DNA from: Akkermansiaceae bacterium
Lineage (GTDB): Bacteria > Verrucomicrobiota > Verrucomicrobiia > Verrucomicrobiales > Akkermansiaceae
Direction of reading: 5' to 3'
Length of the DNA stretch: 42,838 bases
Assembly: GCA_028822935.1 (NCBI GenBank)
Contig: JAPKCM010000037.1
Span: 1-42,838 of the forward strand
Below are positions 3,542 through 26,591 of the stretch, in pieces (position 1 is the first letter of the stretch; every line of letters starts with the position of its first letter). The notes beneath the pieces are model-generated. The model was not told the DNA's origin, ran no database searches, and saw nothing but the letters and a program-made list of their open reading frames with translations. Position numbers and translations under genes: made by a program.

Positions 3542-6500
3542 ATGAATATTTCACGCCTCCTCCTCCTCCCCGGATTTCTGATCTCGATGCTTCCGGCGCA
3601 AGTCGTCATCAATGAGATCCACTATAATAGTGAACCGAACACTTCCCATGATGAATTCGTGGAGCTCTACAATGCCGGCACGGACCCCGTCGACGTCTCC
3701 GGATGGTTTTTCCAGCAAGGAATCAATTTTACGATTCCCGCAAATACTGAGATCCAGGGCCTCAGCCACCTCGTCATTTCACAAGATCCCGCCGCGATGC
3801 AGGGCATCTATGGCGTAGACTCCGTCGGGCCCTTCGGTGGCGGCCTCTCCAGCGCGGGCGAAACGGTGGAGCTCCGCCAAGCCAATGGCACTCGCGCAGA
3901 CATCGTAACTTATCGCTCGGAATTCCCCTGGCCCATCGGAGCCAATGGAAATGGTTCCTCGATGGAGCTGGTCGACCCCTCTCTTGATAACAATTTGGGG
4001 GCTTCATGGCGCAGCTCACTCGTTCCCGGCATCCTCCCTGAAGCCACTCTCATTCCCGCATCAGCCTCCTGGAGTTGGCGCAAGGGAGACAGCGAGGCCT
4101 CAAGCCCGGTCGATCTCTGGCGCGGCGAGAGCTTCACCGAAGACGCCACTTGGAACTCCGAGAGCATGCCCATCGGTTTTGGCTCCGTCTCCGGGCTCAC
4201 CTTTGCCAATCCCATCGCTGACATGCGATCCAATTACACCTCTGTCTTTTTCCGGAAAGAATTCACCATCGCTCCAGGCGAAATCTCTTCAAACCTTCTT
4301 CTCCGCTTTCTCTCCGACGATGGCTTTGTCGTTTGGATCAATGGCCAGGAAGTCCACCGCTATCAAGTCAACGGCGGCGATCTCAGCATCGGAATGACGG
4401 CAAACTCCAATGGCGATGAGAGAAATTGGATCGAGCACCTCGTCACCACCGCGAACAGCTTCCTCCACGAGGGAACCAACACGATTGCCATTCATGCCTT
4501 CAACCAAGTCGTCACCAGCAGCGATTTTGGCATCAATTTTGAAGTTATCCGCCCTGCTCCTGTCGCAGGCGCCCCTCCAGTCCCGAGCCCCGGAGCGGCC
4601 AACTCCGCCCTCACTACGAATGCTCCGCCCGCTATCCGGCAGGTCGATCATTCTCCCAATCAACCTGCAGCGGAAGAAGACACCGTCATCACAGCAAAAA
4701 TCACCGACCCCGATGGAGTCGCTTCAGTAAGTCTTGCGGTCCAGCTCGTTTTTCCAGGAAACTACGTTCCCGCTTTTCTCGCGAAAGCGACCTCGGCCTT
4801 GATCGCCGATCCAGAGAGCCCGCGCACCCCTAACCCAGCCTATTTCGATGCCGTAAATTGGATCACCCTTGCGATGGTCGATGACGGCTCAGGCAACGAT
4901 GCCCTCGCCGGCGACAACATCTACACCGCAACGGTGTCCGGACAAGCGAATCGGGTTCTCGTGCGCTATCGTATCTCCGCTACGGACTCCAGTGGCACAA
5001 ACGTCGAGGTTCCCTACGCCGATGACCCGGCCTTGAACTTTGCCTACTTCGTTTACAACGGGATCCCGGATTACCAGGCCGACGCCCGCTCGGTTCTCGG
5101 AGCTCCCCACACTTACTCGGCGGAAACGATGACCTCGATTCCGAACTACCACGTCCTCACCACCTCCGCGAATTTCGACCAAGCGGTGGCTTACAACGGG
5201 AACCAAATCGATCGAAACCGATATGCTGCACGAAGCGCCTACAACTGGAACTGCAGTTTCATCTACGATGGCAAGGTCTACGACCACATCGGCTACCGTC
5301 TCCGCCAAAGAAATGCGCGCTACGCCGGAAATGGCAAGAGGAGCTTCAAATTCCGCTTCAATCGCGGTAGCTATCCCACCTTCCGTGACTCTGATGGTAA
5401 CAAATACCCCGAGCCCTGGAAGTTCCTCGCCACTCATAAAATGATCGGTTCACGGGGCCATTCCACTTGGGGAATGGACCAATCGACAAACCACAAAATC
5501 TACAACATGACCGGGACCCCCGCTCCCAATACCCATTGGTTCAACATGCGGGTGATCCGTGGTGCCGACGAAGCACCCAATCAATATCAAGGCGACCATT
5601 TCGGCATGCTCCTTGCCCTCGAAGAATTTGATAAGCGCTTTCTTGATGCCCACGGCATGGAAAAAGGAAACCTCTACAAGCTCATCAGTGGCCGCACCGA
5701 TGGAGTAAGCGTGCAGCGTTATCAAGCGGCTGATGCAGTCGATGATGGTTCCGATTTCAAGAACATCATCTTCAACCTCCGCCCCGCCAAGGACGACACT
5801 TTCCTGAACACCTACGTCGATTACAACCACTGGAATCACTACCACGTGGTCAATGACATGATCCGCCACTACGACGTCGCACCCAACACGGCAGAGCACC
5901 TCAAGAACCGCGCCTTTTATTTCAAGCCCATGCCTGGAAATCCTCTGGGACAATTGCAAACCCTCCCCTGGGATTCGGACACCAGCTGGGGGCCGAACTG
6001 GAATGGAGGCATCGACTTCCCAGCCAATGCGATCGTCAGCGGCAACAATATTCCCACCCGCGAACCCTTTGCTACTGCTTACAAAAACGTCGTCCGAGAA
6101 ATGCGCGATCTCATCTGGACGCCCGAGCAAATCAGCCTTCTTTTAGATCCTCCGGCTAGTAAGCTCAAAGATCTTGTTTCAGCGGACCGTGACCGCTGGA
6201 CCGGGGCGATCGGAGGAAGCCAATCGGAACGCGATATCGAGCCTATCGTGGCCGACATGAAGAAGTTCGCCTTCGATGGCGGCTCATGGGTCGGTGGCAC
6301 AAACGGTGCCATGGCCCCCATCTCAAACGATTCCGGCGTTTCCGGTCAGAGCGGACGCGACGCCTACCTTGATGCTCTTGCCGCCGACCCCGCCCTTCCC
6401 GCCAAGCCCACCATCACTTATTCGGGAACCGCGGGTTTTCCTCAAGACGAACTCGCCTTCACCAGCTCTGCCTTTTCAGATCCCCAAGGCGCGGGCAGCT

Positions 6501-8128
6501 TCGCCGCGATGGAGTGGCGGGTCGCCGAGATCACTCCCATCGGCGGAGGTACCGAGGTGCTCATGCCCGGCGGAGCAACTTGGACTTACCTCGATGATGG
6601 CAGCGACCAGGGAACGACCTGGAAGGACATGAACTTCGATGACGCTTCCTGGAAAACAGGAGCCAGCCCGGCAGGTTATGGAGGCATCAGCGGACTCACC
6701 CTTACGACAGCCATTCTCTTCGGAGATGACAACTCGAATAAGCACATCACGACCTATTTCCGGACCACGACCAACCTCGCTGACCCCTCTGCGTTCGAGT
6801 CCTTTACCTTTGGTCTTCTCGTCGATGATGGGGCCGTCGTTTACGTCAACGGATCACCGGTCATTCGTGATGGCTTCAACACAAACACCGTCGTCAATTA
6901 CGACACCCAAGCTGACTCCAACGGCGGAGAGTCGACCTTCGACGAATTCGTGGTGGATTCCTCCTTCTTCATTGCAGGCGAAAACGTCATTGCCATCGAG
7001 GTCCATCAACGAAGTCTCAGCAGCTCGGACATGGGCTTCGAAATGGTGCTGTCCGCGACCCGCAATCTTATCGAGGGCGGAGAAGATCCCCTCTTTGAAT
7101 GGAATGCCGATTGGGAATCCGGAGCGCTCACCTCATTTAGCCCCTCCATCGAGGTCCCCAGCATCACCCGGGATGGCAAAACCTATCGCGCTCGCGTGCG
7201 CCACGAGGATGCCAGCGGTCGATGGAGCAATTGGTCCGATCCAGTCGAGTTCCTCGCCACTGCGCCCGCCATCCAGCCCTGGCTCGATGGACTGATCATC
7301 AGCGAGGTGATGTATCATCCAAGCGATCCCACCCCCGAAGAACTCGCACTCGACCCGACTTTGGAAGAGAGCGACTTCGAGTGGATCGAGCTCATGAATA
7401 TCGGCTCCACCCCGCTGGATCTCACCAACGTGCGTTTCACCAAGGGAATCGAGTTCGACTTCATCAACAGCACCAAAATGACCATCGCTCCCGGCGAACG
7501 CCTTGTCGTGGTCGCTAAGGAATCAGCCTTCAATCTCCGCTACGGATTTGTCACGACCCCGGACTTCGTCATCGGCACCTTCTACAAAAATCTCTCAAAC
7601 GGCGGAGAACGACTGAAGCTCTCGATGGGCGCAGGCACTTCCATTCGGGATTTCGAATACAAAACCGACCTTCCTTGGCCCACCGCCTCTGATGGCGGTA
7701 ATCGCAGCCTCGTCTACCTCGTGGTCCCCGCCTCTCTCCTTGATCCGACTCTCCCCGAGAGCTGGCGCGCCGGCGTTTCCAATGGCGGCTCGCCTGGAGA
7801 AGGTGAATCGACGACCTTCGCTGGTGATCCTAATGGCGACGACGATGGAGACGGCATCCCGAACCTCATCGCTTATGCCGCACCTGGAGGTCTGACCTTG
7901 ACGATCACGGAAGGCGGCTATGCCGAACTCAGCTATCGTCGATCCCTCGCTGCTGACGATGTCTTCATCTTAATCGAAACAGGAAACGGGAGTTGGCAAC
8001 CCATGGGAGCTGGGTATCCCCTCGTAGACGAAGTCTTCTATGCCGACGGCACGAGCTCTTTGAGCTATCGCAGTGCGGCTCCCGTCAATGCAACCGAGAT
8101 CTTTAGGCTCAAAGCCTTCCAACGCTAA
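3542..8128 (+). CDS. Giant secreted lamin-tail-domain / CotH-kinase-like protein
   Basis: 1528 residues with a signal peptide (~1-19, ending LPAQ). Domains in order: lamin-tail domain (~20-160, starts VVINEIHYNS); galactose-binding/PA14-like beta domain (~170-335, with LRFLSDDGFVVWINGQEV); Ig/cadherin-like segment (~365-500); CotH region (~530-890, with FKFRFNRG and PWDSDTSWG, acidic residues D811 and D813); second galactose-binding-like domain (~1020-1180, LLVDDGAVVYVNGSPV); second lamin-tail domain (~1250-1400, IISEVMYHPSD); and a C-terminal module (~1430-1528) opening with an Asp-rich DGDGIPNL loop. CotH of spore formers is a protein kinase for coat proteins; whether this copy phosphorylates anything is unknown. 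It is probably displayed at the surface. AAAGGGA lies 9 bases before the start, one of the few Shine-Dalgarno-like leaders here. Its C-terminal module resembles that of the protein at 22095. Confidence 0.9.
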   Translation: MNISRLLLLPGFLISMLPAQVVINEIHYNSEPNTSHDEFVELYNAGTDPVDVSGWFFQQGINFTIPANTEIQGLSHLVISQDPAAMQGIYGVDSVGPFGGGLSSAGETVELRQANGTRADIVTYRSEFPWPIGANGNGSSMELVDPSLDNNLGASWRSSLVPGILPEATLIPASASWSWRKGDSEASSPVDLWRGESFTEDATWNSESMPIGFGSVSGLTFANPIADMRSNYTSVFFRKEFTIAPGEISSNLLLRFLSDDGFVVWINGQEVHRYQVNGGDLSIGMTANSNGDERNWIEHLVTTANSFLHEGTNTIAIHAFNQVVTSSDFGINFEVIRPAPVAGAPPVPSPGAANSALTTNAPPAIRQVDHSPNQPAAEEDTVITAKITDPDGVASVSLAVQLVFPGNYVPAFLAKATSALIADPESPRTPNPAYFDAVNWITLAMVDDGSGNDALAGDNIYTATVSGQANRVLVRYRISATDSSGTNVEVPYADDPALNFAYFVYNGIPDYQADARSVLGAPHTYSAETMTSIPNYHVLTTSANFDQAVAYNGNQIDRNRYAARSAYNWNCSFIYDGKVYDHIGYRLRQRNARYAGNGKRSFKFRFNRGSYPTFRDSDGNKYPEPWKFLATHKMIGSRGHSTWGMDQSTNHKIYNMTGTPAPNTHWFNMRVIRGADEAPNQYQGDHFGMLLALEEFDKRFLDAHGMEKGNLYKLISGRTDGVSVQRYQAADAVDDGSDFKNIIFNLRPAKDDTFLNTYVDYNHWNHYHVVNDMIRHYDVAPNTAEHLKNRAFYFKPMPGNPLGQLQTLPWDSDTSWGPNWNGGIDFPANAIVSGNNIPTREPFATAYKNVVREMRDLIWTPEQISLLLDPPASKLKDLVSADRDRWTGAIGGSQSERDIEPIVADMKKFAFDGGSWVGGTNGAMAPISNDSGVSGQSGRDAYLDALAADPALPAKPTITYSGTAGFPQDELAFTSSAFSDPQGAGSFAAMEWRVAEITPIGGGTEVLMPGGATWTYLDDGSDQGTTWKDMNFDDASWKTGASPAGYGGISGLTLTTAILFGDDNSNKHITTYFRTTTNLADPSAFESFTFGLLVDDGAVVYVNGSPVIRDGFNTNTVVNYDTQADSNGGESTFDEFVVDSSFFIAGENVIAIEVHQRSLSSSDMGFEMVLSATRNLIEGGEDPLFEWNADWESGALTSFSPSIEVPSITRDGKTYRARVRHEDASGRWSNWSDPVEFLATAPAIQPWLDGLIISEVMYHPSDPTPEELALDPTLEESDFEWIELMNIGSTPLDLTNVRFTKGIEFDFINSTKMTIAPGERLVVVAKESAFNLRYGFVTTPDFVIGTFYKNLSNGGERLKLSMGAGTSIRDFEYKTDLPWPTASDGGNRSLVYLVVPASLLDPTLPESWRAGVSNGGSPGEGESTTFAGDPNGDDDGDGIPNLIAYAAPGGLTLTITEGGYAELSYRRSLAADDVFILIETGNGSWQPMGAGYPLVDEVFYADGTSSLSYRSAAPVNATEIFRLKAFQR

Positions 8129-18634: not shown

Positions 18635-18979
18635 GTGGGAGATCAAATCATCATCAAGGGCCTGCAACTCGATTGTCATATCGGAGTTCCTGCCGAGGAA
18701 CGAGCCGAGCCTCAGAGCCTCCGAGTCCATCTAACTTTACAAGTCCCGCCATTTCCGAAGAGCGATGAGATTGAAGGCACCGTGGACTACAAGGAAGTAG
18801 CGGATCAGGTGCGAGCGCTGGCGGCGAGCGGCGAGCGTAAACTCATCGAAACTCTCGCCCAAGATATCGCCTCCCACATCCTTTCTTCATTCCCGGTAGA
18901 TCGAGTCCGCGTGGAACTCGATAAGCGCATCCTACCCGAGACCGATTGGGTCGGCGTCATCATTGAACGCACAAATTGA
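18635..18979 (+). CDS. folB: Dihydroneopterin aldolase
   Basis: 114 residues from a GTG start 9 bases after the HAD stop. LQLDCHIGVPAEERAEPQ carries the conserved Glu of the pterin site, VDYKEVAD the substrate-loop Asp-Tyr, LIETLAQDIA the Glu73 helix and VRVELDKRILPE the catalytic Lys strand. It cleaves dihydroneopterin to hydroxymethyl-dihydropterin and glycolaldehyde in folate synthesis. Length normal. The other folate genes are not in the window. Confidence 0.92.
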   Translation: MGDQIIIKGLQLDCHIGVPAEERAEPQSLRVHLTLQVPPFPKSDEIEGTVDYKEVADQVRALAASGERKLIETLAQDIASHILSSFPVDRVRVELDKRILPETDWVGVIIERTN

Positions 18980-19001
18980 ACAAGTCAGCGATTCACGTGT
19001 C
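18977..19001 (+). promoter_or_regulatory. Possible ECF-type promoter before the sigma-factor gene
   Basis: TGAAC at 18977-18981 and GTC at 18999-19001 are separated by 17 bases, which fits the AAC-N16/17-GTC pattern of ECF-recognised promoters. It lies 60 bases before the sigma gene and could be autoregulatory. The match is short and may be chance. Confidence 0.25.
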
Positions 19002-19060: not shown

Positions 19061-19648
19061 ATGTTCCGAGAAGAAAAAATCGACCCCGATCACGAACTCG
19101 TCCGCCGCGCGCAGGACGGGAACACCCGTGCATTCGATGACCTCGTCGTCAAGTATTCCACCAAACTCTACGGCATGGTCTACCACATGACGGCGAACAA
19201 GGAGGACACGCACGACCTTTTGCAGGATATCTTTGCAAAAGCCTACCGCTCACTGAAGCGATTTCGCGGAAAATCGACCTTTTATACTTGGATCTATTCC
19301 ATCTCGACCAACATGACTCTCAATTTCCTAAAAAAGAGGAAACGACGGAGTGCTTTGAGCCTCGATAACGTGGATTCAGGCATTCAAAACAACGACGCTC
19401 TGGTCGATTTGGGACACGCTTCCAACCCGCGCCACCAAAGCAACATCAATGAACTTCAAAAAAAATTGAACGAAGCGCTGCAGGCGCTGTCAGAGGACCA
19501 CAGAGCAGTTGTTACCATGTTTGACATTCAAGGGGTTCCCCACGCTGAAATCAGCAGAATTCTTGGAGTGACGGAGGGGACAGTTCGTTCCAGATTGTTT
19601 TATGCACACAAACAGCTGCAGGGCCACTTGCAGGAGTATGTTCGCTAA
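19061..19648 (+). CDS. ECF (RpoE-type) RNA polymerase sigma factor
   Basis: 195 residues. Region 2 spans ~20-92, including DLLQDIFAKAYRSLKRFRGKS, which holds the -10 recognition helix, and FYTWIYSISTNMTLNFLKKR. Region 4 spans ~135-187, with ALSEDHRAVVTMFDIQGVPH and ISRILGVTEGTVRSRLFYA, the -35 helix-turn-helix. No C-terminal extension. It directs RNA polymerase to a dedicated regulon, usually under control of a membrane anti-sigma factor. The two genes downstream are the obvious candidate partners. It is separated by 81 bases from folB and has the only ECF-like promoter match in this group. Confidence 0.95.
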   Translation: MFREEKIDPDHELVRRAQDGNTRAFDDLVVKYSTKLYGMVYHMTANKEDTHDLLQDIFAKAYRSLKRFRGKSTFYTWIYSISTNMTLNFLKKRKRRSALSLDNVDSGIQNNDALVDLGHASNPRHQSNINELQKKLNEALQALSEDHRAVVTMFDIQGVPHAEISRILGVTEGTVRSRLFYAHKQLQGHLQEYVR

Positions 19649-19696
19649 GATCTTCTTGGTTTCCCTTGAATTTTAAGAGAAAAAAATAGCTTTATC

Positions 19697-20083
19697 GTGA
19701 ACAACTCAGACCAGATCCAGAAACTCGTCAGCTTGAAGCGCTACGAGACTCCCCCCGATGGATATTTCGAGGACTTCCTCGAAGAGTTTCAGCAGCGCCA
19801 ACGCCAAGAGCTTCTTAAGAAATCGTCACTCAGCCTCCTCAGTGAGCGCGTCGGCACATGGTTTCGCGAGCTGGGCTCCATCAAATGGGTCGCTGGTGCA
19901 GGGGTCGCTTACGTGACTCTGACTATTGGCTTTGTTGTTTATTCCTCGATTTCCGGACCAGAAGTTGAACAAAACATTGCACCTGCCTCCTATAAGCGGG
20001 ATTCCGCAGAGCCTCTCCCTGCTGTCGATTTTGAAGATGGCAGCAACTTCCGCTCTCGACAGGACACAAAGCGAGAATTCTAA
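19697..20083 (+). CDS. Single-span membrane protein, putative anti-sigma factor
   Basis: 128 residues from GTG 19697 (NNSDQIQKLVSLKRYE). The N-terminal ~60 residues are soluble, with a Lys/Arg/Glu-rich helix (FLEEFQQRQRQELLKK). One membrane span lies at ~63-86 (IKWVAGAGVAYVTLTIGFVV). The outer tail of ~40 residues is Asp/Ser/Arg-rich and probably unstructured. No zinc-binding HxxxCxxC motif of the ZAS family is seen. The role as anti-sigma is inferred from position (48 bases after the ECF sigma gene) and topology. It is followed after 15 bases by the HtrA-like gene. Confidence 0.6.
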   Translation: MNNSDQIQKLVSLKRYETPPDGYFEDFLEEFQQRQRQELLKKSSLSLLSERVGTWFRELGSIKWVAGAGVAYVTLTIGFVVYSSISGPEVEQNIAPASYKRDSAEPLPAVDFEDGSNFRSRQDTKREF

Positions 20084-20098
20084 TCGACTCTTTCATTC

Positions 20099-20977
20099 AT
20101 GACCTTCTCCAAATTTTGCCGCGGCCTCATGGTCGCTGCCTTTTTCTCTCAAGCCTCCTTCGCTCGAATCACCCTCACTCTCCCCCCGGAAAAAGAAGGA
20201 GGACCTGATAGCCAAGCCATTGCCCTGCCCGTCGATACCGAGGGCCACTACGTCACCGTAGGAATCGTGGGAGCCGATGCCTCTAAGGCACGCGCAAGCA
20301 ATCTCGCATTTTCTCTAATCGCGCAGGACCCCCAGTCCCGCTGTACCATCCTCAAGGGGCCGATCGTTCAAAAATTTCCGGCCTTGGGCTCTTCCAAAAA
20401 GCTAAAACCTGGCAGCGCACTTTACTGGAAGCCGAACAAGTCCGGAGCGATCTGCCGCGTCGTGAGCTGGGAGACTTCCTTTCACGAGCGCCAATTGCCA
20501 CTCAGCTTCCTTCGCGTCCACTGCAGTGCTGCTCTTCCAAAACCGGGTCAACCTCTCTACAATGAAGCAGGAGATCTGGTGGCAATCGCTCACCAACCGA
20601 CGCCCGATTTTGGCAATGGCGTCTACGCCCTCCCCATCGAGGCGATCAAGCGGAACCTCACCGACTACCGGACCAACAAATCCCTGAGGCGCTGCTGGCT
20701 TGGCCTGCACCTTGACCACTTGAATCCCATTCCCGCCGTGGAAGGCATTCGTCCTGAATCTCCCTCCGCTAAGGTCGGACTGAAAAAAGGTGATATTCTT
20801 ATCAGCCTCGGTGAATGGTCCATCACGACCTACTCCTCCGCGATTAACGCATTTTACTATCTCCTTCCAGGTCAAGAAACCAACTTTCGGGTCCTCCGCG
20901 GCACGCAACTTCTCGATCTTAAAATCACTCCCTTGGCTCACCCTGGCTATTCTGCAGTGCCTGAGACCGGGGAATAA
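20099..20977 (+). CDS. HtrA/DegS-like pseudoprotease with PDZ domain
   Basis: 292 residues with a signal peptide (~1-22, ending ASFA). Residues ~35-190 follow the S1C (HtrA) protease fold. EGHYVTVGIVG (48-58) matches the strand that holds the catalytic His in HtrA, where the position is Ile56. PGQPLYNEAGDLVAIA (149-164) matches GNSGGPLVNxxGExIGI, where Pro149 occupies the nucleophile Ser position. GVYALPIEAIKRNL (174-187) matches the usual GxxFAIP helix. Residues ~198-278 form a PDZ domain: WLGLHLD, EGIRPESPSAKVGLKKGDIL, then LLDLKI. The chain looks unable to cut peptide bonds but able to bind C-terminal peptides. With the sigma and membrane protein genes it suggests a sensor rather than a protease. 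Confidence 0.75.
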   Translation: MTFSKFCRGLMVAAFFSQASFARITLTLPPEKEGGPDSQAIALPVDTEGHYVTVGIVGADASKARASNLAFSLIAQDPQSRCTILKGPIVQKFPALGSSKKLKPGSALYWKPNKSGAICRVVSWETSFHERQLPLSFLRVHCSAALPKPGQPLYNEAGDLVAIAHQPTPDFGNGVYALPIEAIKRNLTDYRTNKSLRRCWLGLHLDHLNPIPAVEGIRPESPSAKVGLKKGDILISLGEWSITTYSSAINAFYYLLPGQETNFRVLRGTQLLDLKITPLAHPGYSAVPETGE

Positions 20978-22094: not shown

Positions 22095-25000
22095 ATGATT
22101 TCCACCTCTCTCCGATCCTTCGCTTGCTTCATCGCTGCCGCGAGTGCCTCCTTTAATCCAACTTACGCGACACCCGTTGTCGGGGTTGATTTCTCAACGG
22201 GAGATTCCTTTAACTCAACAACTGATGATCTCGTTATCGGCGATGGCATTACGATCTCAGACTGGAGTGTCGCAGGCGGCGGAGGAATCACGGGAGATGG
22301 AAATGGCAATACCGGACGAGCTTCCGCCCCCGTCGGAAAATTTAATGGGCCTTCTCTAGCCAACGGAACCCCTCCTGCGTTCGGAAGTGCCCCACCTACG
22401 CAGGGAATTCACTCGTTTACCATCACGATTGATTCAAGCACCACGATTAATCTGACGAACGTCAACTTCGACTTCAGCCGGGCAACGGGGGGGCGCGCCC
22501 AACGATGGTTGGCCTTTCGCACGAGCTTAGACAGTGGACTTCTCTACAGTGAAAATGGTCCTGCACGTCCCGCATTCACCTCGGTTGGGCTTGCGCTCAC
22601 AGATGCCAAATACCAGGGACTGACAGATACAACGGTCACTTTTTACTGGTATAGCGGAGGCCAAGGGTCAGGCGACTGCGATATCGATTCCATCGTCGTC
22701 GAAGCCGATCTGGCCGCTGCTAATCCGCCCACCGTGACCAACTCTGCTGCGACCCATGTCGAAGCGACCAGTGCCACGCTCAATGGTATCGTCACTGATA
22801 CCGGAGGAGCCGCTCCTCTCATCACCATTTTCTATGGAACCAGCGATGGTGGCACCACCCCCGGGAACTGGACCAGTTCGGTCGATCTCGGAAACGAGAC
22901 CGCCTCTTTCGTCACCGACGTCACCGGCCTGTCACCTTCGAGCAATTATTTCTTCCGCAGCTATGCCGAGAATTCTGCCGGGACAGATTGGGCCCCCTCC
23001 TCTGCGACCTTTACCACCAATGCCATCTTCCCTTCCAGCATCGATAATTCCCCTGCCATCAATCTCAGGGGAACCTCGGCAAGAGTGGGCGGAGAGGTGA
23101 CCAACACCGGAGGATCTTCCCCCGTTGTGACTCTTTACTGGGGCGATAACGACGGCGGAACAAGCACCGGCGCATGGGACAATTCAGTCGCACTTGGAGC
23201 ACAAAGTGGCTCCTTCGAGACCGATCTCGCCAACTTAAATCCCCTGACAACTTACTATTTCCGCAGCCTCGCGATCAACGGAGGGGGGCAGGTTTGGGCT
23301 TCGCCTACCGAAGCATTCACCACCTTGGAAGTCCGTGACCTTGTCATCAATGAGTTCATGGCCGCCAATGACGGTGGCCTTTCGAATAATCCGAATGCCT
23401 GGTTTCCCATCGCGAATCAAGTCAGCGGGCGCACCGATGACTGGATCGAGATTGCCAATCGCAGTAGCGGGCCTCTTCCTCTCGATGGCTGGTTCCTCAC
23501 TGATGACTCCACCAATTTGACCCGGTGGGCTTTTCCCGCTGGAACAACGGTGCCCCAGAATGGCTTCATTATCGTTTATGCTTCCGGTGACGGCATCCCG
23601 GATGCCAATGGAAACCTACACACCAACTTCAAGCTATCTAAAGGCGGAGACTACCTCGCCCTCGTGGATTCCATGTTTGCCGTGGCCTCGGAGTTCGCCA
23701 GCGGTGGCATGAATTACCCGAGCCAAGACGCTGATATTTCCTACGGCTTACACCCGGTCAGCGAGCTTCCAGTTTACTTCGAATCTCCCACTCCCGGAGA
23801 TGACAATGACACCAATGGTCAGGCCCGCGTCGCTGATACAAAGTTCAGCTTAAAACGAGGCTACTATCAAACTGCCATCAATGTGGAAATCACCAGCGCC
23901 ACTCTGGGAGCGACCATTTACTATACCACCGATGGCACCCTCCCCATCGATGAATTGGGAAACCCCGGCGCAAGTGCTCAAACCTATTCCACTCCGATCG
24001 CCTTAAACCGGACCACCGCGATCCGGGCGGCCGCGGTGAAGGTCGGGTTCGTGCCCACGAACGTAGACTGCAACAGCTATTTCCTTCTCGATATCGATGG
24101 CGCGGCATCCAACGGCATCGACACAAGCGGACTCAATCTCCCCTTCCTACAGCAAAGCCAACCCGCAGGATGGGGCAGCCTCACTTCAGGCGACTATAAC
24201 ATGGATTCCGAGGTCTCCCAAGAAACCACCACCGCGACTGGGCATGCCACCTCGACTGCAAAAACGATGCTCGAGGGAATGCGGGATATCCCCACCATTT
24301 CCATCGTCATGAATCGCGACGATTTTAGTGGTTCCAACGGCATTTATACCAACTCCGGCAATAAGGGATTTGCTTGGGAACGAGCCTGCAGTGCTGAGTT
24401 CATCCCGGCAGAAACGGACACGCGTAGTGACTGGCAAGAGAACTGCGGACTCCGGGTTCAGGGAGGAGCCAGCCGGAACCCCAGCAGTAGCCCGAAACAC
24501 TCACTGAGCTTCCGCTTCCGCGAGAGATATGGCGTCAACAAACTCAAAGAGCCGCTTTTCCCAGGCTCCGCAGTGGACGAATACAACGTCATCGCGCTCC
24601 GTGCCGGATACAATAATTCATGGATTCACCGCGATGCCGGCCAGCGCGGCCGTGGCTCCATGATCCGTGACCAGTGGATGCGTCAGAGCATGCTCGACAT
24701 GGGCCACTCCGCAGCAGGCGAGGGCTTCATGGCCCACGTCTTTGTCAATGGCCTCTACTGGGGACTTCATAATATTTGCGAACGAGGAGATGCCTCTCAC
24801 TACGCAGAGCACAATGGGGGCGACGCAGACCTTCTCGATGCTCGAAATGGTTCACAATACACCGATGGAAACAGCACCGCTTGGAACCAAATCAGTGGGG
24901 TGGTCGATAGCGCTGACTGGCAGAACATTCAACAGGTCATCAATATCGACCAGTATATAGATTACCAACTAATCAATCGCTACGGATCCAATCAAGATCT

Positions 25001-26591
25001 CAAAACAAGTGGCAACTGGCGCGCTGCGGGCGGAGGCCCCTTCCCTTCCGGCATGCCCGAGCAGATGGCCCCCTGGGACCTCTATTCCTGGGACGGAGAA
25101 CGCTGTCTCGAAAGCCAAAATTCCAGCAGCATCCCTCTCGACCCCATGGGAGTTCGCGGCACCTTGGAATCAAACGACGAATACAAAGTCCGTCTCGCCG
25201 ACCGTGTGCAGAAGCATTTCTACGGAAACGGAGCCCTCACCCCAAGCAAGACCGCAGCCCGCTGGGAACGCTACGTAACCGACATCGACCGAGCCATCAT
25301 TGCCGAGTCCGCACGCTGGGGCGACCACCGCCGAGCCACCCCATACACTCGCGACACCGAATGGCTCACTGAGCAAAACCGCCTCTACACGAGCTACTTC
25401 CCGGTCCGCACTAACAACGTGCTCAACAACCTCACCCTCCTCACCCTCGACGCCCCTACCTACCTTGTCGGAGGAAGTTCTCAAGTCGAAGGTCTCATCC
25501 CCTTCGGTTCAACCCTCACCGTTACGGGCAGCAGCACCATTTATTACACCACTGACGGCAGCGACCCTCGCCTCGATGGAGGTGCCATTTCTCCAAACGC
25601 GGCTGCAGTGAGCAGTGGAGGCACTATCCCCATCTCTGTGGGAGCACTCGTGAAAGCCCGTGTCCGAAGCGGCTCGACTTGGTCCGCCGTCACCGACGGA
25701 ACGTACCTCGTTGGACCCATCGCCCACTCCACCAACATCGTCATCTCCGAGATCATGTATCACCCCAACGGCATGGACGAGAACACCGAGTTCATCGAGT
25801 TGCTGAATGTCAACGGCTCCAACGCCATCGACCTCTCGCTCGCGACCTTCGCCGGCATCGACTACACCTTTCCCCTCGGTGAGTCCCTTGCACCAGGCGA
25901 GCGCATCGTCATCGTAAAGGATCCCATCGCTTTCGCTACCGTCCACAATACCGCAGGCATGAGGATCGCCCCGGGAGATTACGCTTCCAGCCTGAGCAAC
26001 GACGGCGAGGAACTTGCCATCATCAACGGGCTGGGTGTCGATGCCCAACGTTTCACATACAACGACGTAGATCCATGGCCCAGAGCAGCCGATGGCGACG
26101 GATTCACCCTCACCCTAATCGCGCCCGAAACATCCCCTCTCCACTCGCTCGCCTCGAACTGGCGCAGCAGCACCGCCCTCAACGGCACCCCCGGCGGAAG
26201 CGACGCCGAGGCCTTCTCAGGAGATCCACTGGCTGATGCCGATGGAGACGGACTCAACGCCCTTCTCGAATACGCGCTTGGTTCAACTGCTGGAGACGCC
26301 GGTCCCAGCCCTGAAGCTCGAGCCACCGCAGGAACCGGAACCTTTGATGATGGAAATGGTGGAACAACAGAATTCCTAACCTTCTCCTACCGTCGTAATC
26401 TGGCAGCAGATGACATCCTCTATCAAGTCCAGCTCTCCTCCGACCTCGACAACTGGGCTGACACTGGATCCGAATATGTTACCTCTGTTTCAAATGAAGA
26501 TGGCACCGAAACGGTCACCGTCCGCAGCGTCACTCCCATTACTGATCTGCCGAAAAAATTCATCCGCTTGAAGATCAACCTTATCCCATAA
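22095..26591 (+). CDS. Giant secreted lamin-tail / CotH-kinase-like protein, second copy
   Basis: 1498 residues with a signal peptide (~1-26, ending TYA). Domains in order: discoidin-like beta domain (~28-205); two fibronectin-III-like repeats (~212-305 and ~313-405, each with TLNGIV/ARVGGEV and GLSPSSNYFFRSYAEN-type strands); lamin-tail domain (~413-560, DLVINEFMAAND); CHB_HEX_C-like strand domain (~581-665, ATIYYTTDGTLP); CotH kinase-like domain (~731-1090, TISIVMNRDDF, LRVQGGASR, and PWDLYSWDGERC with Asp995 and Asp1000); a second CHB_HEX-like domain (~1141); a second lamin-tail domain (~1215-1350, IVISEIMYHPNG); and a C-terminal module (~1380-1498) with DADGDGLNALLEYALG. The CotH block is closer to the family pattern than that of the protein at 3542. 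The gene ends 2 bases before the FG-GAP gene. Confidence 0.92.
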   Translation: MISTSLRSFACFIAAASASFNPTYATPVVGVDFSTGDSFNSTTDDLVIGDGITISDWSVAGGGGITGDGNGNTGRASAPVGKFNGPSLANGTPPAFGSAPPTQGIHSFTITIDSSTTINLTNVNFDFSRATGGRAQRWLAFRTSLDSGLLYSENGPARPAFTSVGLALTDAKYQGLTDTTVTFYWYSGGQGSGDCDIDSIVVEADLAAANPPTVTNSAATHVEATSATLNGIVTDTGGAAPLITIFYGTSDGGTTPGNWTSSVDLGNETASFVTDVTGLSPSSNYFFRSYAENSAGTDWAPSSATFTTNAIFPSSIDNSPAINLRGTSARVGGEVTNTGGSSPVVTLYWGDNDGGTSTGAWDNSVALGAQSGSFETDLANLNPLTTYYFRSLAINGGGQVWASPTEAFTTLEVRDLVINEFMAANDGGLSNNPNAWFPIANQVSGRTDDWIEIANRSSGPLPLDGWFLTDDSTNLTRWAFPAGTTVPQNGFIIVYASGDGIPDANGNLHTNFKLSKGGDYLALVDSMFAVASEFASGGMNYPSQDADISYGLHPVSELPVYFESPTPGDDNDTNGQARVADTKFSLKRGYYQTAINVEITSATLGATIYYTTDGTLPIDELGNPGASAQTYSTPIALNRTTAIRAAAVKVGFVPTNVDCNSYFLLDIDGAASNGIDTSGLNLPFLQQSQPAGWGSLTSGDYNMDSEVSQETTTATGHATSTAKTMLEGMRDIPTISIVMNRDDFSGSNGIYTNSGNKGFAWERACSAEFIPAETDTRSDWQENCGLRVQGGASRNPSSSPKHSLSFRFRERYGVNKLKEPLFPGSAVDEYNVIALRAGYNNSWIHRDAGQRGRGSMIRDQWMRQSMLDMGHSAAGEGFMAHVFVNGLYWGLHNICERGDASHYAEHNGGDADLLDARNGSQYTDGNSTAWNQISGVVDSADWQNIQQVINIDQYIDYQLINRYGSNQDLKTSGNWRAAGGGPFPSGMPEQMAPWDLYSWDGERCLESQNSSSIPLDPMGVRGTLESNDEYKVRLADRVQKHFYGNGALTPSKTAARWERYVTDIDRAIIAESARWGDHRRATPYTRDTEWLTEQNRLYTSYFPVRTNNVLNNLTLLTLDAPTYLVGGSSQVEGLIPFGSTLTVTGSSTIYYTTDGSDPRLDGGAISPNAAAVSSGGTIPISVGALVKARVRSGSTWSAVTDGTYLVGPIAHSTNIVISEIMYHPNGMDENTEFIELLNVNGSNAIDLSLATFAGIDYTFPLGESLAPGERIVIVKDPIAFATVHNTAGMRIAPGDYASSLSNDGEELAIINGLGVDAQRFTYNDVDPWPRAADGDGFTLTLIAPETSPLHSLASNWRSSTALNGTPGGSDAEAFSGDPLADADGDGLNALLEYALGSTAGDAGPSPEARATAGTGTFDDGNGGTTEFLTFSYRRNLAADDILYQVQLSSDLDNWADTGSEYVTSVSNEDGTETVTVRSVTPITDLPKKFIRLKINLIP

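Follow-up and report, generated by a model that had tools for sequence, protein, structure and literature searches.

The closest described counterparts of the locus analyzed here are the RpoE-RseA-DegS(-RseB) system of E. coli and the AlgU-MucA-AlgW(-MucB) system of Pseudomonas, in each of which an ECF sigma factor is combined with an anti-sigma factor that spans the membrane once and with a periplasmic HtrA-fold protein that carries a PDZ domain. According to excerpts of PMC10202637 and PMC8545111, the hydrophobic C-termini of outer-membrane proteins are read by DegS and AlgW, and RseB and MucB are described in those of PMC10202637 as proteins that cover the anti-sigma factor in the periplasm and protect it from proteolysis. 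In the CnrH-CnrY system, whose anti-sigma factor belongs to class II, and in the SigW-RsiW system, the anti-sigma factor wraps its sigma factor, and in CnrY it is two helices that wrap CnrH (excerpts of PMC7406223 and PMC5358783).

The locus described in this work resembles the first two systems in that it encodes an ECF sigma factor, a one-span protein that is a candidate anti-sigma factor, and a periplasmic protein that combines the HtrA fold with a PDZ domain. However, this HtrA protein lacks all three catalytic residues and, by eye, a membrane anchor, the candidate anti-sigma factor itself bears an end that looks like a PDZ ligand, and the cytoplasmic part of this candidate is modelled as two helices. 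In its modelled sigma factor arrangement and in the two cytoplasmic helices predicted by the model, the locus is like CnrH-CnrY and SigW-RsiW, although no solved anti-sigma factor is matched by the sequence of its one-span protein, and neither a periplasmic PDZ-ligand tail nor a pseudo-HtrA partner is mentioned in the partial descriptions of those systems that were compared. The role proposed below for the HtrA-fold protein is like that of the shielding proteins RseB and MucB, from which it differs by its HtrA and PDZ fold and by the absence of an RseB-type Pfam match at E values up to 1. The parts are known, and the arrangement is new. None of the papers searched joined a pseudoprotease, an anti-sigma factor and a PDZ domain, and among the matches listed for sigma and anti-sigma factors of Akkermansia and for envelope stress and sigma factors in Verrucomicrobia no title was on the subject.

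Organization of the locus

The window, by which we mean the whole stretch of 42,838 nucleotides that was analyzed, contains three open reading frames on the forward strand, which are the sigma gene (gene 1), the gene for the one-span protein (gene 2) and the pseudo-HtrA gene (gene 3) (Table 1). Genes of the DciA, HAD and FolB types are located upstream and a UPF0047 gene is located downstream, as assigned with Pfam. An earlier note on this DNA had described a trio of an ECF sigma factor, a one-span protein without a zinc motif and an exported HtrA-fold protein, and this anatomy was confirmed by the open reading frames, the profile searches and the structure model. Gene 1 encodes an ECF sigma factor, as shown by matches over the cut-offs to PF04542 (1e-15) and PF08281 (5e-14) in Pfam and by a score that exceeded the cut-off of TIGR02937 in NCBIfam. 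Elsewhere, the window encodes two very large proteins, of 1528 amino acids (3542-8128) and 1498 amino acids (22095-26591), which have lamin-tail and CotH kinase domains.

Table 1. Features of the locus, with positions in the window
Feature	Position	Strand	Basis
Candidate ECF-type promoter TTGAAC-N16-TGTC	18976..19001	+	Before the sigma gene; TTGA overlaps the folB stop codon
ECF sigma factor, 195 aa (gene 1)	19061..19648	+	ORF list, Pfam, NCBIfam, homologues
One-span anti-sigma factor candidate, 128 aa (gene 2)	19697..20083	+	GTG start; conservation, adjacency, model
Likely membrane span of the gene 2 product, residues 64-83, N-terminus inside	19886..19945	+	By eye; helix 273-297 of the fusion model
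C-terminal -Arg-Glu-Phe of the gene 2 product, predicted PDZ ligand	20072..20080	+	Covariation with gene 3
Exported pseudo-HtrA protein, 292 aa, triad lost (gene 3)	20099..20977	+	Profiles, alignment, model
Carboxylate-binding loop WLGL of the gene 3 PDZ domain, residues 200-203	20696..20707	+	Conservation of the Gly column
PDZ domain of the gene 3 product, residues 201-276	20699..20926	+	PF13180 (Pfam), E 2e-8; pLDDT about 95-98

Gene 2 as a candidate anti-sigma factor gene

The product of gene 2 contains neither Cys nor His, and therefore no zinc motif, and it has one hydrophobic stretch (about residues 64-83, judged by eye) and a conserved N-terminal motif, LKRYExPxxGYFxxFLxxFxxRQR. The best Pfam match of the window protein had an E value of only 0.28, and there was no match in NCBIfam; DUF5345, the family concerned, was dropped as being at the level of chance (one of 35 members). 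Among the other gene 2 members the best Pfam match was that of a single member to DUF4120 (E 0.013), and the 35 members together matched 11 Pfam families at E values up to 1, none of them an anti-sigma family. When the gene 2 profile was compared with solved structures, only two matches were obtained (E 1.3 and 4.4), and no solved anti-sigma factor was matched.

The sigma factor and the gene 2 product were modelled together as an artificial construct, an in-frame read-through of the two genes with the stops replaced by Gly, using a 113-row alignment that was built from 45 of 46 in-frame read-throughs (one with unknown bases was left out) and from 34 of 84 loci, each entered with one row for the sigma factor and another for the gene 2 product. 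In this fusion model (pLDDT 80.4, pTM 0.69), the gene 2 part is predicted to form two cytoplasmic helices, at 211-228 (pLDDT about 75-83) and 235-270 (pLDDT about 84-96), before the membrane helix. The sigma part was most similar to SigW of the SigW-RsiW complex (TM 0.91 of target, rmsd 2.1), followed by CnrH of CnrH-CnrY (0.85) and Bartonella RpoE-NepR (0.77), and its full-length fit was poor to sigma-E with RseA (0.46-0.50), to AlgU with MucA (0.48-0.49) and likewise to polymerase-bound sigma factors. With a second aligner, SigW was aligned over 158 residues (Z 18.0) and CnrH over 154 (Z 15.5), and AlgU (Z 15.3) and sigma-E (Z 15.2) were aligned only over the 90-99 residues of the first domain.

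Class I anti-sigma domains (ASDI), including that of RseA, have four helices, the first three of which are bundled on sigma-4. The modelled fusion fits a CnrY-like clasp in which the product of gene 2 would hold the sigma factor with two helices, and it is compatible with the previous proposal that the two proteins are a sigma/anti-sigma pair. A pair of the RpoE/RseA type found no support: the sigma factor scores 138 bits against the RpoE profile TIGR02939, which is below its cut-off of 236 bits, and the arrangement predicted by the model resembles that of SigW and CnrH with their anti-sigma factors more than that of sigma-E with RseA.

Conservation of the sigma factor and gene 2, and presence of gene 3

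The sigma factor and the one-span protein are a conserved unit and not chance neighbours, because their genes are adjacent on a single contig in 36 of 38 genomes, the genome of the window included. A match to the sigma factor of at least 56% identity was found in 37 of the 38 (56-86% in 36 of the 37 other genomes), and a match to gene 2 was also found in 37. In G015 the two genes are located at two contig ends, and G024 has no gene 2 and only a 31% match to the sigma factor. The unit was found across Verrucomicrobiales, including Akkermansiaceae: gene 2 was detected in 292 of 386 genomes of the order, and the gene 3 profile was matched at E 1e-15 or better in 171 of them; the weaker ones among these 171 matches, which are located in longer frames, may be DegP-like paralogues.

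The earlier note had proposed a search for co-occurrence of the three genes; this was borne out for the pair of the sigma gene and gene 2, but the trio is not fixed, because gene 3 is optional. Of the 37 loci in the nearest set, 10 have gene 3 behind gene 2 and 27 lack it, and in the latter the pair is retained and is followed by a UPF0047 gene or by other genes. At least 13 changes, by gain or loss, in the presence of gene 3 were counted on the tree of the sigma factor. Separately, 18 loci of one genus in the same family (L358-L375, genus g13) encode proteins matched by the gene 2 profile with no ECF sigma gene found alongside, and these proteins represent an orphan or paralogous anti-sigma-like family.

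Loss of the catalytic triad in the product of gene 3

The product of gene 3 begins with what by eye resembles a cleavable signal peptide and contains the trypsin-like domain and the PDZ fold of HtrA/Deg proteins. Its profile matches a DegP-like chain (E 3e-33, profile positions 34-280 of 297), its score against TIGR02037 of NCBIfam is only 33.8 bits for a cut-off of 416 bits, and its structure model (pLDDT 89.9, pTM 0.83) aligns with the structures of DegQ, DegP and DegS, with a best Foldseek E value of 3e-17 and, for a DegP chain, a Z score of 24.4 and an rmsd of 2.7 over 258 residues (rows within 1 of this Z score were considered tied).

At the catalytic places, the window protein has Ile56 instead of His, Arg81 instead of Asp and Pro149 instead of Ser; the replacements of His and Ser had been read from the sequence before and were verified by the alignment, which extends the loss of the triad to the family. 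Among the 77 rows of this alignment (76 of the 78 gene 3 rows and the window protein), the Ser column holds Ser in one row, the Asp column holds Asp in one row, and the residues listed for the His place do not include His. The loss of the triad is probably old, because the losses are shared by carriers that belong to different families of the order. The Asp place is occupied by Arg in 59 of the 77 rows, a conserved replacement that may itself have a function. The Gly of the WLGL motif, which we take to be the carboxylate-binding loop with the same role as in PDZ and HtrA families, is retained in 76 rows.

Dependence of the gene 2 C-terminus on gene 3

The gene 2 product of the window ends in -KREF. 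In a first alignment, an -REF end was found in all 10 one-span proteins with gene 3 behind them and in none of the 27 others. A larger set started from 200 loci, of which 60 were chosen by a hit of the gene 3 profile in the genome, 20 by its absence, 80 by the sigma factor and the rest from the nearest genomes. Removal of 49 duplicates and of 21 other loci (8 that lacked a gene 2 match, 4 in which the sigma hit was missing or incomplete and 9 with less than 1000 bases downstream) left 130 unique loci, 80 with and 50 without gene 3, a ratio that does not indicate prevalence because the sampling was chosen. The four loci lacking a full sigma hit were L157 and L174, with gene 3 and a hydrophobic end, L179, with gene 3 and an end that is not hydrophobic, and L103, without gene 3.

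The last residue of the gene 2 product is hydrophobic in 79 of the 80 loci with gene 3 and in 17 of the 50 without it, and Glu or Asp followed by Phe, Leu, Tyr or Met at the end was found in 59 and 6 of these loci, respectively. In loci with gene 3, the entropy is 1.4 bits at the last position and about 3.5 bits four and five residues further upstream; in loci without gene 3, it is 3.2 bits at the last position. The final Phe is encoded by TTC in 28 cases and by TTT in 24, and since both codons are used, selection on the tail seems to act at the level of the protein. When the evolution of the tail and of gene 3 was fitted on the sigma factor tree, dependent evolution was favoured with a likelihood ratio of 35.3 (4 degrees of freedom, p 4e-7), and the fitted rate of tail loss was at its lower bound with gene 3 and 4.5 without it. 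None of the 79 finished simulations (of 160 planned) with independently evolving tails reached this likelihood ratio, their maximum being 14.5, and two control positions showed no dependence on gene 3, namely the last residue of the sigma factor itself (likelihood ratio 6.0, p 0.20) and the sixth-last residue of the gene 2 product (5.1, p 0.28). A model-free sign test on independent pairs was not significant alone (6 pairs, median p 0.25).

A forecast was fixed before further loci were fetched, and 43 of the 52 fetched loci were counted (7 had already been seen and 2 had a short downstream part). All 16 new loci with gene 3 had a hydrophobic end, which is not a distant test because they come from three genera that had all been sampled already. 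Among the 27 new loci without gene 3, for which the forecast was about a third or less, 14 had a hydrophobic end, and 4 of the 9 in which the sigma gene adjoins, so that the forecast was missed over the 27 and loosely met over the 9. The other 18 had no sigma gene found alongside; 17 of them belong to one genus and are probably paralogues, and the remaining one, in G268, sits at a contig start. With 24 loci added to a pooled single tree, one of the 16 being left out, the counts were 94 of 95 with gene 3 and 21 of 59 without it (likelihood ratio 39.6, p 5e-8).

The covariation of the tail with gene 3 is solid as a pattern in the sequences, and a PDZ-ligand-like end whose conservation depends on gene 3 supports the earlier suggestion that the dead HtrA protein may bind the tail of the anti-sigma factor. 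Individual loci illustrate the pattern and its limits. For example, L178, the sole locus of the 80 without a hydrophobic tail, is also the sole row in which the loop Gly is lost (to Glu). L179, which is outside the 80 owing to its missing or short sigma hit, has gene 3 with an intact loop and an -MPK end. L126 (G033) ends in -RDL and was counted as lacking gene 3, and a 114-residue frame behind its gene 2, in which a PDZ-like domain is weakly matched (E 2e-4), is perhaps a decayed gene 3. Some loci without gene 3 keep -EF or -EL ends. In L195 (G109) and L196 (G098), a gene in the opposite direction takes the place of gene 3 and the gene 2 product still ends in -YREL or -YRQL; these are possibly fresh losses of gene 3, which could show the decay of the tail.

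Proposed mechanism and alternative explanations

In the mechanism that we infer, from the pairing of sigma and anti-sigma factor through PDZ binding and shielding as its purpose to the competitor and the proteases, the product of gene 2 would use its two cytoplasmic helices to clasp the ECF sigma factor of the neighbouring gene at the membrane, as CnrY or RsiW does, and its short periplasmic tail would end as a PDZ ligand (-REF with a free carboxylate). The PDZ domain of the pseudo-HtrA protein would bind this end and, being unable to cut, would cap and shield the tail. If proteins with a free hydrophobic C-terminus accumulated in the periplasm, they would compete for the PDZ groove and uncover the tail, and the uncovered anti-sigma factor would be destroyed by active proteases, DegP-like and of the RseP type, which would free the sigma factor. 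The genome of the window codes for a DegP-like protein in which none of the three catalytic motifs is missing (342.7 bits, short of the TIGR02037 cut-off), and also for a site-2 protease of the RseP type that scores over its cut-off. Binding of the tail by the PDZ domain is the simplest reading because the loop is intact, the triad is lost and the hydrophobic end is nearly always kept where gene 3 is present. A read-through model of the tail and gene 3, a construct without a free carboxylate and with the signal peptide in between, left the tail disordered, undocked from the PDZ groove and without a strand (residues 1-20, pLDDT about 54), and this outcome was given no weight in either direction. 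We consider the chances about even that the gene 2 product is a CnrY-like anti-sigma factor and that the pseudo-HtrA PDZ domain holds and shields its tail until other C-termini compete for this domain. Unfolded outer-membrane proteins commonly end in Phe, and a more specific version, which we put forward tentatively and as somewhat less probable, is a switch in which the end of the anti-sigma factor mimics the C-terminus of an outer-membrane protein, is held by a dead DegS-like PDZ domain and is displaced by unfolded outer-membrane proteins. If this were true, a pseudo-protease would occupy the regulatory place of DegS, and the classical relay would be turned from one in which binding activates cutting into one in which binding hides the substrate.

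Shielding is taken as the most likely purpose because the fitted loss of the end is fast without gene 3, as if a bare hydrophobic end were a liability. However, this fast loss equally fits plain drift, and it does not separate shielding from its main rival, in which the pseudo-HtrA protein is an adaptor that binds the tail and, on a signal, presents it to an active HtrA protease, perhaps in mixed trimers with the DegP-like protein. The covariation of PDZ domain and tail is the same evidence for both, the genome supplies a DegP-like protein with a full triad, and HtrA proteins commonly form trimers, as is established for the family. Repeated changes in the presence of gene 3 while the pair stays would nevertheless be odd for an obligatory activator, and we regard an adaptor as rather unlikely.

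A hydrophobic end can also persist alone or serve another partner, because over a third of the loci without gene 3 in the pooled tree keep it. The same loci speak for the explanation that other PDZ proteases, such as a tail-specific protease, DegP or RseP, use the hydrophobic C-terminus as a handle and that gene 3 matters only indirectly. In that case, however, a rate of end loss near zero with gene 3 and high without it would not be expected, nor would the lack of such dependence at the control positions, and we consider this explanation improbable. Finally, gene 3 might be a mere neighbour that encodes an unrelated, chaperone-like periplasmic pseudo-protease, the pattern of the tail being co-inherited by descent. 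The independent pairs, which alone fall short of significance, leave some room for co-inheritance, but the tree-based test with its simulations, the negative controls and L178, in which the loop Gly and the hydrophobic tail are lost together, speak against it and make it very improbable.

Candidate promoter of the sigma gene

The motif TTGAAC-N16/17-TGTC before the sigma gene resembles an autoregulated ECF promoter. It was found in 25 of 128 regions upstream of the sigma gene, mostly of the same genus, compared with a mean of 0.02 in mononucleotide shuffles. Part of this conservation may have another cause, because the first half of the motif overlaps the folB stop codon in the window. In the genome of the window the motif has 16 matches, compared with 4 for the reversed pattern. 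Since 12 of the 16, the sigma locus among these, overlap an open frame of more than 150 codons, a regulon drawn from the motif was rejected, and none is claimed. A match of the TTGAAC-N16-TGTC form (L309, contig C93 of the same genome) is located 44 bases upstream of the first of two tandem genes that are presumably Skp/OmpH-like. The motif, with spacers of 15-18, was found in none of 29 homologous loci of other genomes, in which the start codon is often unclear. Near matches were seen by eye at three of these 29 loci, in G007, G001 and G011.
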